From Algoriphagus sp. (lineage in GTDB: Bacteria > Bacteroidota > Bacteroidia > Cytophagales > Cyclobacteriaceae): DNA of 64,000 nucleotides. Each line of letters begins with the position of its first letter. Position 1 is the first letter of the stretch. Of this stretch, positions 25,366 to 30,510 are shown one piece after another. The notes beneath the pieces are model-generated. The model made no database searches. It worked only from the letters and a program-made list of their open reading frames with translations, and had not been told where the DNA came from. The stretch is from the NCBI GenBank assembly GCA_030729785.1, contig JANQWS010000023.1:62001-126000 (forward strand), given 5' to 3'. The position numbers were made by a program, and so were the translations under genes.

Positions 25366-28300
25366 ATGAAAAATTTTACCAGAAAAATCTGGGGCTCCGT
25401 ACTTTCTTTAGTGGTTTTCCTTTCTTTGGGTACCTCTATTGCACTAGCCCAGACTACCATCTCCGGTACAGTCACGGATGCGGATACTAAAGAAACATTG
25501 GTAGGGGTAAACATCCTCGTAAAAGGAAAAGTAATTGGAACGATTACTGACTTGTCGGGTAAATTTACTCTAAACGTAAATCAGGAGCCTCCATTCACCT
25601 TGGTTTTCTCCATGGTGGGTTTCGGTTCTAAGGAAGTTGAAATCACGGGAGGAATCTCCAACCTATCAGTAGAACTAGGTGAATCAACAATTCTAGGACA
25701 AGAAGTCGTTATCTCCGCTTCGAGAGTAGAAGAAAGCATCCTCAAATCTCCTGTTTCTGTTGAAAAAATGGATATCATCGCTATCAGAGATGTTCCACAA
25801 GCGAGTTTCTACGATGCCCTTAACAACATGAAGGGGGTAGAAATGAGTACGCAATCCTTGACATTTAAATCATTTAACACGAGAGGCTTCAATGCGAACG
25901 GTAACGTAAGAACGGTACAAATGATCGATGGAATGGACAACCAAGCTCCTGGTCTTAATTTCTCTGTAGGTAATATAGTAGGTATCTCAGAATTGGATTT
26001 GGAAAGCGTTGAATTACTTCCAGGTGCTTCTTCAGCACTCTATGGGCCAAATGCGATTAACGGTATACTTTTGATGAACTCCAAAAATCCTTTCCAATAC
26101 CAGGGATTGTCTATGAATGTTCGAACTGGGTTGATGGACCAAGAAAACAGAACTACTGCAGCAACTGGATTTTATGATTTCAGTGCGCGCTATGCCAAGG
26201 CTATCAGTGATAAGGTTGCTTTTAAAGTAAATGTATCCTATTTGAAGGCAGATGACTGGCAAGCAAATGATTTCAGAGATCAATCACTATTGAATTCCTC
26301 AACGATTGAGACCGGTAATCGAATCTCCAACCCAGGTTACAATGGTGTAAACGTCTACGGTGATGAGACCAACGTTAACATGAACTCCATTGCGCAAGGA
26401 ATGGTTACTGCTGGTGTACTACCTGCCGCTCTCCTACCCTTGATTCCTCAAACTTTTGTATCTAGAACAGGATATAGAGAATCTGATTTAGCAGATTATG
26501 GGACTAAATCATTAAAGCTAAACGCTGCCTTGCATTACAGAATCAATGACCGTGTAGAAGCAATTATTCAAGGTAATTATGGTTTTGGTACTACAGTTTA
26601 CACGGGTGCAGATCGTTACTCCATTGCTAATTTCAAATTGGGTCAATACAAAGCAGAATTGAAGGGCGCAAACTGGTTCTTGAGAGGATATACTACGCAA
26701 GAACGTTCTGGTGATGCCTTTGCTGTAGGTATTGCTGCTTCAGGTGTCAACGAAGCATGGAAACCTAGTAGCCTTTGGTTCCCTCAATATGTAGGTGCTT
26801 TTGCTCAGGCAAGAGCTGGAGGAATGGACAATGCGATGGCGCATGATGCTGCTAGAGCATTCGCAGATCAAGGAAGATTGGTACCCGGTACTGCAGCATT
26901 TGATGCTGCAAAAAATACGGTGGTCAATAAACCTATTCCAGGCGATGCAACAGGCGTAGGAGCAAAATTTGTTGACAAAACAAACCTATACCACGTGGAA
27001 GGATCTTACCAGTTTACGGAAGTTAAGTGGGCTGATTTTGTAATTGGTGCAAACTTCAGAACCTATGAATTGAATTCTGAAAAAACACTGTTTGCAACTG
27101 ATGAAAATGGAGATGAATTCTCTATCAATGAATTTGGTGGGTATATTCAAGGAGCAAAATCCTTATTTAATGATAAATTTAGATTAACCGCTTCTGCTCG
27201 ATACGATAAGAATGAAAACTTTGAAGGCCAAGTTTCACCTCGTATTTCGGGAGTCTATTCAGCAGGTAATCACAATTTCCGTGCTTCTTACCAGACTGGC
27301 TTTAGAATGCCAACTACTCAAGATCAATACATTGACTTGGTAACCCCTCAAGCACGTTTGATTGGCGGTCTTCCTTTGTTTAGAGATCGTTACAATTTCT
27401 CTGGTAACCCTGTGTATTCGCTTGCTACGGTCACTAGCTTTGGTGGCGCTGTTTTGGCAGGTACACAACCTTCTTCTCCAGTGTATCAAGCATCTATTGC
27501 ACAAGCTACACAATTAGCGATTACTCAGGCTACGTCTATCGTTACTCAACAAGTACTAGCAGGATTAATTCCAGCTGCTCAGGCACCTGCAGCTATAGCA
27601 GCCTTGGTGCCTAGCATCGTTCCTGTGATTGCTGCACAATTGGTGCCAGCAAATGCGGCAGCAGCAGCAAAAGATAAGCTTGTTGCTTACGAACCAACCA
27701 CCTTCCAGCCTGAGATTGTTAAGTCTTATGAGATTGGCTATAAGGGATTGTTTTCAAATAAACTATTGATTGATGCGTATGCCTATTTCAATAGCTTTGA
27801 GAATTTCATTGGAGGTCAGGTTTTGGTACAGGACAAAAACTTCAATCCAGCAAATCCTGCTTCGGCACTTGGACTCAATTTGTTAAGCTCTAGTTCAAGA
27901 AATATTTTCTCTATGCCAGTCAATAGAACAGAGATTATCAAGTCTTGGGGATGGGCTTTAGGTGCAGATTATCGCTTACCTAAAAACTATACACTTGGTG
28001 GTAATGTGTCTTACAACACCCTTCAAAATTTGGATGAGTTAGTAGTTACTGGTTTCCAGCCTTCTTTCAATACTCCTGAATACCGCTATGTAGTAAACTT
28101 TGCCAACCGTGAAGTTGTCAAGAATTTAGGTTTTGCGCTTTCTTACAGATGGCAGGGTGAATTTGCTTGGCAGTCATCTTTCGTAGCTCCTGAAGTTTCA
28201 TCACAGCAACTTTCTGTAATGCCTGCATTCGGAACGTTTGATGCGCAAATGAGTGTAAAAATGAAGGCATTGAAGTCTATCTTGAAAATTGGTGGGTCAA

Positions 28301-28398
28301 ACCTATTCAACAGCACCGGATACAGACAAGCATGGGGTAACCCAACTGTCGGTTCCATGTACTATGTGAGCTTGACGTTTGATGAGTTCTTGAACTAA
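25366..28398 (+). CDS. TonB-dependent receptor with carboxypeptidase-regulatory-like N-terminal domain
   Basis: TISGTVTDADTKETLVGVNILVKGKVIGTITDLSGKF; VEKMDIIAIRDVPQASFYDALNNMKGVE plug; long beta-barrel. Confidence 0.92.
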   Translation: MKNFTRKIWGSVLSLVVFLSLGTSIALAQTTISGTVTDADTKETLVGVNILVKGKVIGTITDLSGKFTLNVNQEPPFTLVFSMVGFGSKEVEITGGISNLSVELGESTILGQEVVISASRVEESILKSPVSVEKMDIIAIRDVPQASFYDALNNMKGVEMSTQSLTFKSFNTRGFNANGNVRTVQMIDGMDNQAPGLNFSVGNIVGISELDLESVELLPGASSALYGPNAINGILLMNSKNPFQYQGLSMNVRTGLMDQENRTTAATGFYDFSARYAKAISDKVAFKVNVSYLKADDWQANDFRDQSLLNSSTIETGNRISNPGYNGVNVYGDETNVNMNSIAQGMVTAGVLPAALLPLIPQTFVSRTGYRESDLADYGTKSLKLNAALHYRINDRVEAIIQGNYGFGTTVYTGADRYSIANFKLGQYKAELKGANWFLRGYTTQERSGDAFAVGIAASGVNEAWKPSSLWFPQYVGAFAQARAGGMDNAMAHDAARAFADQGRLVPGTAAFDAAKNTVVNKPIPGDATGVGAKFVDKTNLYHVEGSYQFTEVKWADFVIGANFRTYELNSEKTLFATDENGDEFSINEFGGYIQGAKSLFNDKFRLTASARYDKNENFEGQVSPRISGVYSAGNHNFRASYQTGFRMPTTQDQYIDLVTPQARLIGGLPLFRDRYNFSGNPVYSLATVTSFGGAVLAGTQPSSPVYQASIAQATQLAITQATSIVTQQVLAGLIPAAQAPAAIAALVPSIVPVIAAQLVPANAAAAAKDKLVAYEPTTFQPEIVKSYEIGYKGLFSNKLLIDAYAYFNSFENFIGGQVLVQDKNFNPANPASALGLNLLSSSSRNIFSMPVNRTEIIKSWGWALGADYRLPKNYTLGGNVSYNTLQNLDELVVTGFQPSFNTPEYRYVVNFANREVVKNLGFALSYRWQGEFAWQSSFVAPEVSSQQLSVMPAFGTFDAQMSVKMKALKSILKIGGSNLFNSTGYRQAWGNPTVGSMYYVSLTFDEFLN

Positions 28399-28419
28399 TC
28401 AAATTCGCTTTCTTAAAAA

Positions 28420-28450
28420 AAGGGCTGCTCTTACGAGCGGCCCTTTTTTT
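28420..28450 (+). terminator. strong rho-independent terminator after the TonB receptor
   Basis: AGGGCTGCTC-TTAC-GAGCGGCCCT followed by T-run. Confidence 0.85.
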
Positions 28451-28920
28451 GTACCAAGTACCATGTAGACTCATTGGGTCGAGACACGAGATTCGTATGG
28501 CTTACGAACTTTCAGTTCTTATGTCAATATTCGGCGTTGGGCGTTCGACATTGAAAAAGTATCTAGTCGTTAGATGAATTAGCAAGATGAGGAAAGAATT
28601 CTAGTCCATACTTTGTACTTCGTCTTCGTATTACTTACTAGTATCTAGACACGAGATTCAAACTTCTGAGTTCGACGTCCGGCGTTCAGCGTTAGTTATT
28701 TAATGCTTTGCCAGCCTACCGCCTGTATATCGTAGCTCAAACTTGATTTCCTAACTCTTACTTAACACAATACCGTAGCTCGTATCTCGTACTTCCTTTT
28801 TTGTACGAAGTACATTGTACTTATTCCTGTAGACATTCTTCGATCGGCTTTCGGTGTTCAAAATTAATTTAGATACCGTATTTCGCCTGCCTGGAAGGCA
28901 GGTATCTCGTATTTCTACCT
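28451..28920. repeat. intergenic island of degenerate heptanucleotide tandem tracts
   Basis: GTACCAA-GTACCAT-GTAGACT; TTCGGCG-TTGGGCG-TTCGACA; TTCGACG-TCCGGCG-TTCAGCG; ATACCGT-AGCTCGT-ATCTCGT; GTACGAA-GTACATT-GTACTTA. Confidence 0.75.
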
Positions 28921-28947: not shown

Positions 28948-30510
28948 TTAATGTACTTCGCCCATCATTTTCTTCAATACAGGCTTTAGAAGAAGCAATA
29001 CAAAGGCAGAACCCATTACCGTATACACAATCATCATAAATTGATCTGGCATGGCAGCAAGCCCCTCTTCTGAGCCCCCACTCGCTTCCCCTGCAATCAA
29101 TCCTGCAAATAAGTTGCCCAAAGCCACCGAGAGGAACCAAATTCCCATCATTTGACCACCATATCCTTTAGGAGCCAATTTGGTCACCAATGATAGTCCA
29201 ACAGGGGACAAACTCAATTCACCAAAAGTGTGTAATAAGAAAGTAATGATTAACCAACTAGGAGCTGCCAATTCTCCTGAAGCTGCGATTTTGGTTGCAA
29301 AATACATTACAAAAAAGCCAACACCCAGCATCGCAAGTCCAAAAATGAATTTTAAGGGAGAACTAGGTTCCAAATTCTTACGCCCCAACCAAACCCAAAG
29401 CGCGGCAAAGAATGGTGCGAAAATGATAATGAATAAGGAATTGATAGATTGAAAATAGCCTGTAGGTATTTCCCAACCTAAAACCTGCCGATTTGTAAAA
29501 CGCTCCGCGAATAAATTCAGCGTTGATCCTGCTTGTTCAAACCCAGACCAGAACATGGCTGAAAAAAAGAAAAGAATCGCAATCACGCCTACTTTATTCT
29601 TGTCCGATGTATTCAGTCCCCCAAAAGCAATCACGTAACCCAAATATCCTACGGCTACAAGCGCAATTACTAGCCCTGATGATTTGGCAATTGCCGCTGC
29701 ATCGATGGAAACAATACCAGAAAATAAAATGCCAATCACAACCAAACCAACCAAACCAATTAGTGAGGTGATGCTTTTCAATTTTTTTTGCGCAAGCTGT
29801 TCTTCTGTAGATTGAATCAAAGGAACCTCTCCAAATCCATCAAGCGATTTTCCAGTGAGTTTGTATTGAATCAATCCAAAAATCATTCCTAATCCTGCCA
29901 ACCCAAATCCCAAATGCATGTCGTATTCCGCTACTGTCGCACAAGCTAATGGTGCGATAAAACCGCCAATATTGATACCCATATAAAAAATGGAAAAGCC
30001 TGCATCTCTTTTGGAACTTCCAGCAGGGTAAAGTTGCCCCACAATTGAACTAATATTAGGCTTTAACAATCCAGTGCCCAAAACAATCAAAAGCAATCCC
30101 AGAAAGAAGGAAGTGGTATCCAAGGTGCTCAAGGTAGTTCTTTCCGTTACACTACCTCCTATCCAGCCCTCGATTCCTGGTACTGCCATCATAAAATGGC
30201 CTAAAGCAATGATAATCCCCCCATACCAAACAGACTTCTTCAAGCCAAATAAACGATCAGCAAGCCATCCACCAGGTAAAGCCAAGAGGTATACTCCCAT
30301 CGTATATAGTCCATAAACTGCTCCCGCTGTAGGATCATCAAACCCAAGACCACCTTCGGTAATGGCTTTGGTCATAAATAAAATCAATAAGGCACGCATG
30401 CCGTAGTAACTGAAACGCTCCCACATTTCGGTAAAGAATAACGTCATCAGTCCCTTTGGATGACCAAAAGCAGTAGGACCTGCAAATTCAGAATTAAGTG
30501 CTTTTTCCAA
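28948..30510 (-). CDS. POT/PTR-family peptide MFS transporter
   Basis: GHPKGLMTLFFTEMWERFSYYGMRALLILFMT; FSIFYMGINIGGFIAPLAC. Confidence 0.93.
   Translation of the reverse strand: MEKALNSEFAGPTAFGHPKGLMTLFFTEMWERFSYYGMRALLILFMTKAITEGGLGFDDPTAGAVYGLYTMGVYLLALPGGWLADRLFGLKKSVWYGGIIIALGHFMMAVPGIEGWIGGSVTERTTLSTLDTTSFFLGLLLIVLGTGLLKPNISSIVGQLYPAGSSKRDAGFSIFYMGINIGGFIAPLACATVAEYDMHLGFGLAGLGMIFGLIQYKLTGKSLDGFGEVPLIQSTEEQLAQKKLKSITSLIGLVGLVVIGILFSGIVSIDAAAIAKSSGLVIALVAVGYLGYVIAFGGLNTSDKNKVGVIAILFFFSAMFWSGFEQAGSTLNLFAERFTNRQVLGWEIPTGYFQSINSLFIIIFAPFFAALWVWLGRKNLEPSSPLKFIFGLAMLGVGFFVMYFATKIAASGELAAPSWLIITFLLHTFGELSLSPVGLSLVTKLAPKGYGGQMMGIWFLSVALGNLFAGLIAGEASGGSEEGLAAMPDQFMMIVYTVMGSAFVLLLLKPVLKKMMGEVH

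Follow-up and report, generated by a model that had tools for sequence, protein, structure and literature searches.

Heptamer repeats of an intergenic island in an Algoriphagus-like genome and the repeat arms of PF05635 (S23p) genes

Directly ahead of its S23p gene, the 23S rRNA intervening sequence (IVS) of Coxiella carries GACAGAT heptamers in a copy number that varies between strains, and this IVS is excised by RNase III (PMC4990558); it is an independent published case of heptamers lying beside an S23p gene. The S23p protein of Xanthomonas is a homopentameric toroid (PMC4990558). The elements described below resemble the 23S rRNA IVSs that hold an S23p ORF (Coxiella, Leptospira; PMC4990558), and likewise the 23S IVS of Azospirillum, in that a PF05635 (S23p) gene lies between inverted arms with heptamers beside the ORF. 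However, those of Bacteroidota and cyanobacteria are found in operons or at intergenic sites rather than in rRNA, and their solo copies are numerous. The Avd protein of diversity-generating retroelements is similar to PF05635 in both structure and sequence family (PMC10053308), although neither a reverse transcriptase nor a template repeat was seen at the PF05635 elements studied here.

Tandem 7-nt words also make up the STRRs of heterocystous cyanobacteria, which are intergenic, occupy multiple loci and comprise several families per genome. The tracts of Bacteroidota share this layout, but they are shorter and degenerate rather than built of perfect or near-perfect units, and the likeness stated here concerns the layout. 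TAACTGA heptamers are similar short intergenic direct repeats with a patchy distribution in Beggiatoaceae, Cyanobacteria and Bacteroidetes; unlike the present repeats they consist of a single fixed word, which in most cases directly precedes a start codon, and related heptamers are rare (PMC4679880). The text of that paper held no link between PF05635 and the TAACTGA repeats. Finally, REP/BIME and MITE-like hairpins are short, dispersed, non-coding inverted repeats near gene 3′ ends, whereas the arms considered here consist of tandem heptamers that are locked in phase and vary in their words. A literature search that reached few subscription journals, and that does not establish priority, found no paper joining STRRs and S23p.

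The heptamer island between two convergent genes

The island spans positions 28451–28920 of the window, by which we mean the whole 64-kb stretch of DNA analysed. It comes from a draft genome of 2.57 Mb in 96 contigs that is 84% complete, an assembly state that may affect repeat copy numbers. The preliminary description placed the island after a strong terminator and between convergent genes, and both features were found: the TonB-dependent receptor gene on its left (25366–28398, + strand; identified by reading its translation) is followed by a GC-rich hairpin and T-run, read directly at 28416–28450 (+) and likely to be its terminator, and the gene on the right encodes a POT-family transporter (28948–30510, − strand; identified by translation and by protein comparison with relatives). 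The six heptamer tracts quoted in that description were all read exactly as given, at the same positions. Identity at lag 7 across the island was 0.425, compared with 0.262 in 2000 dinucleotide-preserving shuffles of the same sequence (z 8.1; 0/2000 as high); lag 14 was raised, as expected, and lags 5, 6 and 8–12 were flat. Within the window the island is the top-scoring 470-nt lag-7 stretch, and the strongest single lag-7 segment falls inside it. Similar tracts, on whose presence elsewhere in the genome the idea had been made to depend beforehand, were abundant, with GTACTTNGTACNNNGTAC occurring 66 times in the draft genome and its reversed control 0 times. A plain microsatellite was rejected: Tandem Repeats Finder reports nothing at the island, missing the tracts because they are degenerate. 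An Rfam scan of the island gave no family above the gathering score.

Several word families co-occur in the genome, namely A (GTACNAA/GTACTTN), B (GAACGCC-like), C/D (GTATCAAGTAGCAAG, CAAGARA) and E (GTACGAG/ATACGAA), and the tract words recur at dozens of intergenic sites. All tracts of the island are given on the + strand. The first, of family A and with 5′-arm polarity (28449–28472; GTACCAA GTACCAT GTAGACT), has as its best match in the genome an arm of the PF05635 gene on contig C39, and forms an inverted pair with a family A tract of 3′-arm polarity at 28607–28632 (TACTTTG TACTTCG and following). Between them lie a family B tract whose words recur at other loci (28530–28550; TTCGGCG TTGGGCG TTCGACA, that is, GAACGCC words on the reverse strand) and a non-repetitive core (28551–28606), recognized by comparison with orthologous junctions. 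The core is closely alike at the orthologous junction of close relatives, one of which (L148) carries it in tandem doubling. Further right comes a second family B tract (28671–28691; TTCGACG TCCGGCG TTCAGCG). It is followed by a family E tract (28770–28796; ATACCGT AGCTCGT ATCTCGT ACTTCC) that matches the PF05635 arms of contig C24 with a score of 17.5, a family A tract (28803–28826; GTACGAA GTACATT GTACTTA) that matches the C39 arm, and a weak family B tract read directly at 28838–28861 (TTCTTCGATCGGCTTTCGGTGTTC). The last segment, 28873–28916, has words assigned to family E by eye, ATACCGTATTTCG and GTATCTCGTATTTC, between which lies the REP-like palindrome CCTGCCTGGAAGGCAGG; for the final part of this segment the highest score, 12.5, is the one with the element of contig C18.

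REP-like palindromes of the form CCTGCC..GGCAGG are embedded within the heptamer arms of several islands (window 28884–28906, L147, L208). They are merely interspersed, and the repeating unit of the island is the heptamer rather than the 20–40 nt GC-rich palindrome of REP/BIME elements. Compared with an IVS, the island has terminal inverted repeats in the form of family A pairs, but the S23p ORF and the 23S rRNA location are absent: it sits between protein genes, and the 64-kb window holds no PF05635 ORF, the four PF05635 genes of the genome lying elsewhere. "Mixed, decaying heptanucleotide repeats", as the preliminary description put it, remains an apt description, but these are not merely decaying microsatellites: their word families are those of the inverted arms around PF05635 genes in this genome and its relatives. 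The island is probably a mosaic of arms that belonged to IVS-like elements, have no ORF and are decaying.

Repeat arms and period of PF05635 genes

PF05635 genes, which encode the 23S rRNA intervening-sequence protein, are bracketed by tandem 7-nt repeats that are usually inverted, and by 8-nt repeats in one protein clade. Among 88 such genes from several phyla, one of them inside a 23S rRNA gene, 83 were flanked by a tract on one side or both, and 63 of these on both, compared with 15 of 339 control segments. For 46 loci of the bacterial family, taken by E-value order with their flanks disregarded, the lag-7 score was at least 9 upstream in 36 and downstream in 42; the other lags gave counts of 0–3, apart from the raised lag-14 harmonic, and the control segments 1. 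The words differ by site, and in these 46 loci the arms of an element matched each other better than permuted arms did (0/20000), because word families are shared by both arms. Flank periodicity persisted in 30 PF05635 loci drawn from the whole phylum, some with period 8. Perfect or near-perfect heptamers bracketed most of 16 plasmid loci, which came chiefly from Nostoc, Calothrix, Anabaena, Pseudanabaena and other cyanobacteria and also covered Gemmatimonadota and Azospirillum; at the Gemmatirosa and Picosynechococcus loci the flanking units were octamers. The comparison with STRRs made in the preliminary description holds as a description and reaches further than was claimed, because such heptamer arrays bracket the plasmid-borne S23p genes of Nostoc, Anabaena and Pseudanabaena. 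In the Azospirillum plasmid locus the PF05635 gene, with heptameric arms, lies inside the 23S (LSU) rRNA gene. The PF05635 protein matches the solved structure 2gsc (E 1e-24).

The GTAC pattern of family A is patchy, being present in 41 of 198 genomes of the bacterial family and in several other families of the order. All 41 genomes have PF05635 and the pattern occurs in 0 genomes that lack it, a count that ignores kinship. The broader statement that all heptamer tracts adjoin PF05635 genes was rejected, as only 1 of 44 lag-7 tracts in 1.3 Mb of diverse named genomes was near one; in other phyla most tracts lie far from these genes.

Period-8 flanks were found at eight loci (L312, L313, L317, L329, L333, L335, L402, L404), and six of the eight elements, all those from Bacteroidota, fall into one protein clade (SH-aLRT 99). 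On a tree of 89 PF05635 proteins the period label changes fewer times than in any of 500 shuffles (0/500 as low); because this tree is built on few columns and leaves many forks open, only a coarse statement on the clustering of periods is made. The repeat period, 7 or 8, is inherited along with the PF05635 protein.

These observations bear on neutral replication slippage, according to which polymerase geometry favours 7-nt tandem duplication (proposed by Mrazek et al., according to PMC4679880), the tracts then mutate and PF05635 is incidental. Heptamers are reported as the most abundant class of longer bacterial repeats (PMC4679880), and 7-nt copy differences do occur: in one genome (G087; L220, L221 and L222, at about 768–870 of L220) a GTAC-heptamer hairpin lies between the 23S and 5S rRNA genes of three operons, and one operon copy is without one heptamer unit (L220/L222 versus L221). 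However, the tracts are tightly localized to both sides of one gene family, and one clade of that protein has period 8. Moreover, family A tracts occur as inverted pairs of fixed polarity ((−,+) 32 times and (+,−) 4 times for neighbouring tracts up to 200 nt apart), and the GTAC anchors are conserved across 29 sucB–PF05635–lpd orthologues with 59–100% protein identity. Slippage alone is therefore an improbable source of the tracts. In other genera the family A pairs have different loops, some enclose a PF05635 gene and one lies between 23S and 5S rRNA.

Solo tracts and their turnover

The source genome holds four PF05635 genes, the fourth (G000 C43:24622) near a contig end. The arms belong to family A on contig C39, to family C/D on C18 and to family E on C24. 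Forty-nine solo tracts matched these resident arms with a score of 21.6, compared with 12.2 ± 3.8 for random trios of other elements (0/5000). The solo-tract loci had been selected with the GTAC pattern, and 29 non-GTAC tracts, which that selection did not favour, showed the same match to the resident arms (0/20000). The solo tracts of the genome thus use the words of its own PF05635 arms. In the island, the family A segments match the C39 arms and the family E segments the C24 arms; for family B words no PF05635 arm was found among the arms of the three genes read in the source genome, the fourth being the one near a contig end.

The solo family A element, about 100–140 nt long, is dispersed, with 40–58 matches in several genomes of the clade. 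In the source genome its 45 matches compare with 4 PF05635 genes, an excess that would be expected if heptamer hairpins pre-exist, PF05635 genes insert into them and the arms belong to the target. Such an insertion-site preference is nonetheless unlikely, as the repeat period follows the protein clade and arms also surround the S23p gene inside 23S rRNA, where no prior heptamer array is expected. Mobility of the elements is suggested by their dispersal and by their turnover between related genomes.

This turnover was followed at orthologous junctions. By POT protein, the closest named relatives are Algoriphagus and a Cyclobacteriaceae bacterium. At the POT/TonB junction, a clade of small-genome relatives carries islands that differ in length and content, whereas larger-genome congeners have an ordinary spacer of unrelated sequence with no tracts. 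Relatives exchange modules at a second junction, where one of them has the core reversed. The idea that named relatives conserve the island at their orthologous junction was rejected, as synteny differs and nothing but a terminator is present; dispersal of the non-repeat cores of the island was rejected as well, the similarity in the loci compared being mostly orthology with a weak second copy only. The orthologous junctions compared, at which congeners without tracts have unrelated spacers, showed neither a target-site duplication nor a clean empty site.

A strict RNA stem maintained by compensatory changes was also rejected. At the 29 orthologous sucB–PF05635–lpd sites, arm pairing within the genus scored 19.1 for own arms and 19.1 for crossed arms (9136/20000 permutations as high), and the same comparison on solo hairpins gave no difference. 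RNA folding predicts the island to be only mildly stable (z −1.75). Since pairing at variable positions is not maintained and the fold is weak, conservation extends to the phased word and its polarity but not to a perfect stem. It is unlikely that the arms serve, with no mobility, as stems in RNA or as binding sites through which operon expression or 3′ ends are adjusted: the location of PF05635 genes inside operons would fit, as would the preference of islands for convergent (7/13) and co-directional (11/58) over divergent (1/24) gaps (in loci picked for containing tracts and with crude gene calls), but sequence is rapidly gained, lost and rearranged at one junction among close relatives, the fold is weak and arm pairing is not specific.

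Proposed origin of the island and of scattered heptamer repeats

The reading of the island as a mosaic of decaying arms suggests the following course of events. An intact element would consist of a 5′ arm of tandem purine-rich heptamers, a PF05635 gene of about 120 codons encoding a four-helix bundle, and a 3′ arm with the same words inverted. The pentameric S23p protein may recognize its own repeat words, in DNA or in the transcript, and hence set their spacing. Transcripts would fold loosely across the arms, and RNase III might cut them as it does in rRNA IVSs. ORF-less copies would spread mainly to the 3′ ends of genes, where they could grow and shrink by 7 nt at a time, become duplicated and degenerate into islands like that at 28451–28920.

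A wider proposal is put forward tentatively. PF05635/S23p genes may define very widespread IVS-like selfish elements in ordinary operons, their arms providing the 7-nt ruler (8-nt in one clade) that the pentameric four-helix-bundle protein of the element reads, and their ORF-less offspring may be the source of scattered bacterial heptamer repeats, including the STRRs of heterocystous cyanobacteria. Scattered 7-base repeats of bacteria, among them those beside cyanobacterial S23p genes, would then be tied to one kind of genetic element. The shared architecture makes the questions of STRR origin and role and of S23p function testable, since it offers the protein as a candidate agent behind the repeats and, conversely, the repeats as a candidate ligand of the protein.

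The operons that contain PF05635 genes include sucB–PF05635–lpd, fadB–PF05635–fadA (the suc and fad names being a reading of the flanking sequence) and cas6–PF05635–cas4. In CRISPR-Cas operons the gene lies inside with its arms, as cas6–PF05635–cas4 or cas10–PF05635–cmr3 (L390, L391, L402). On plasmid gamma of Nostoc PCC 7120 (L406:12997–15501) the upstream arm is 2 kb off, with an ISL3-family transposase gene between it and the PF05635 gene. An acidobacterial locus (L123:11574–11700) carries GTCAGTA heptamers as inverted arms, separated by about 50 nt, and has no PF05635 gene in its vicinity. At L007 (about 1560–1700) the draft has an N gap with the same sequence on both sides, likely a scaffolding artefact. 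Seven contigs of the draft source genome G000 (C2, C24, C25, C67, C78, C94, C95) start inside heptamer arrays, which suggests that the arrays break this assembly. A genome from another family of the order (G405; L054, L260) carries very long, near-perfect CTCAGTA/GTACTTA arrays.
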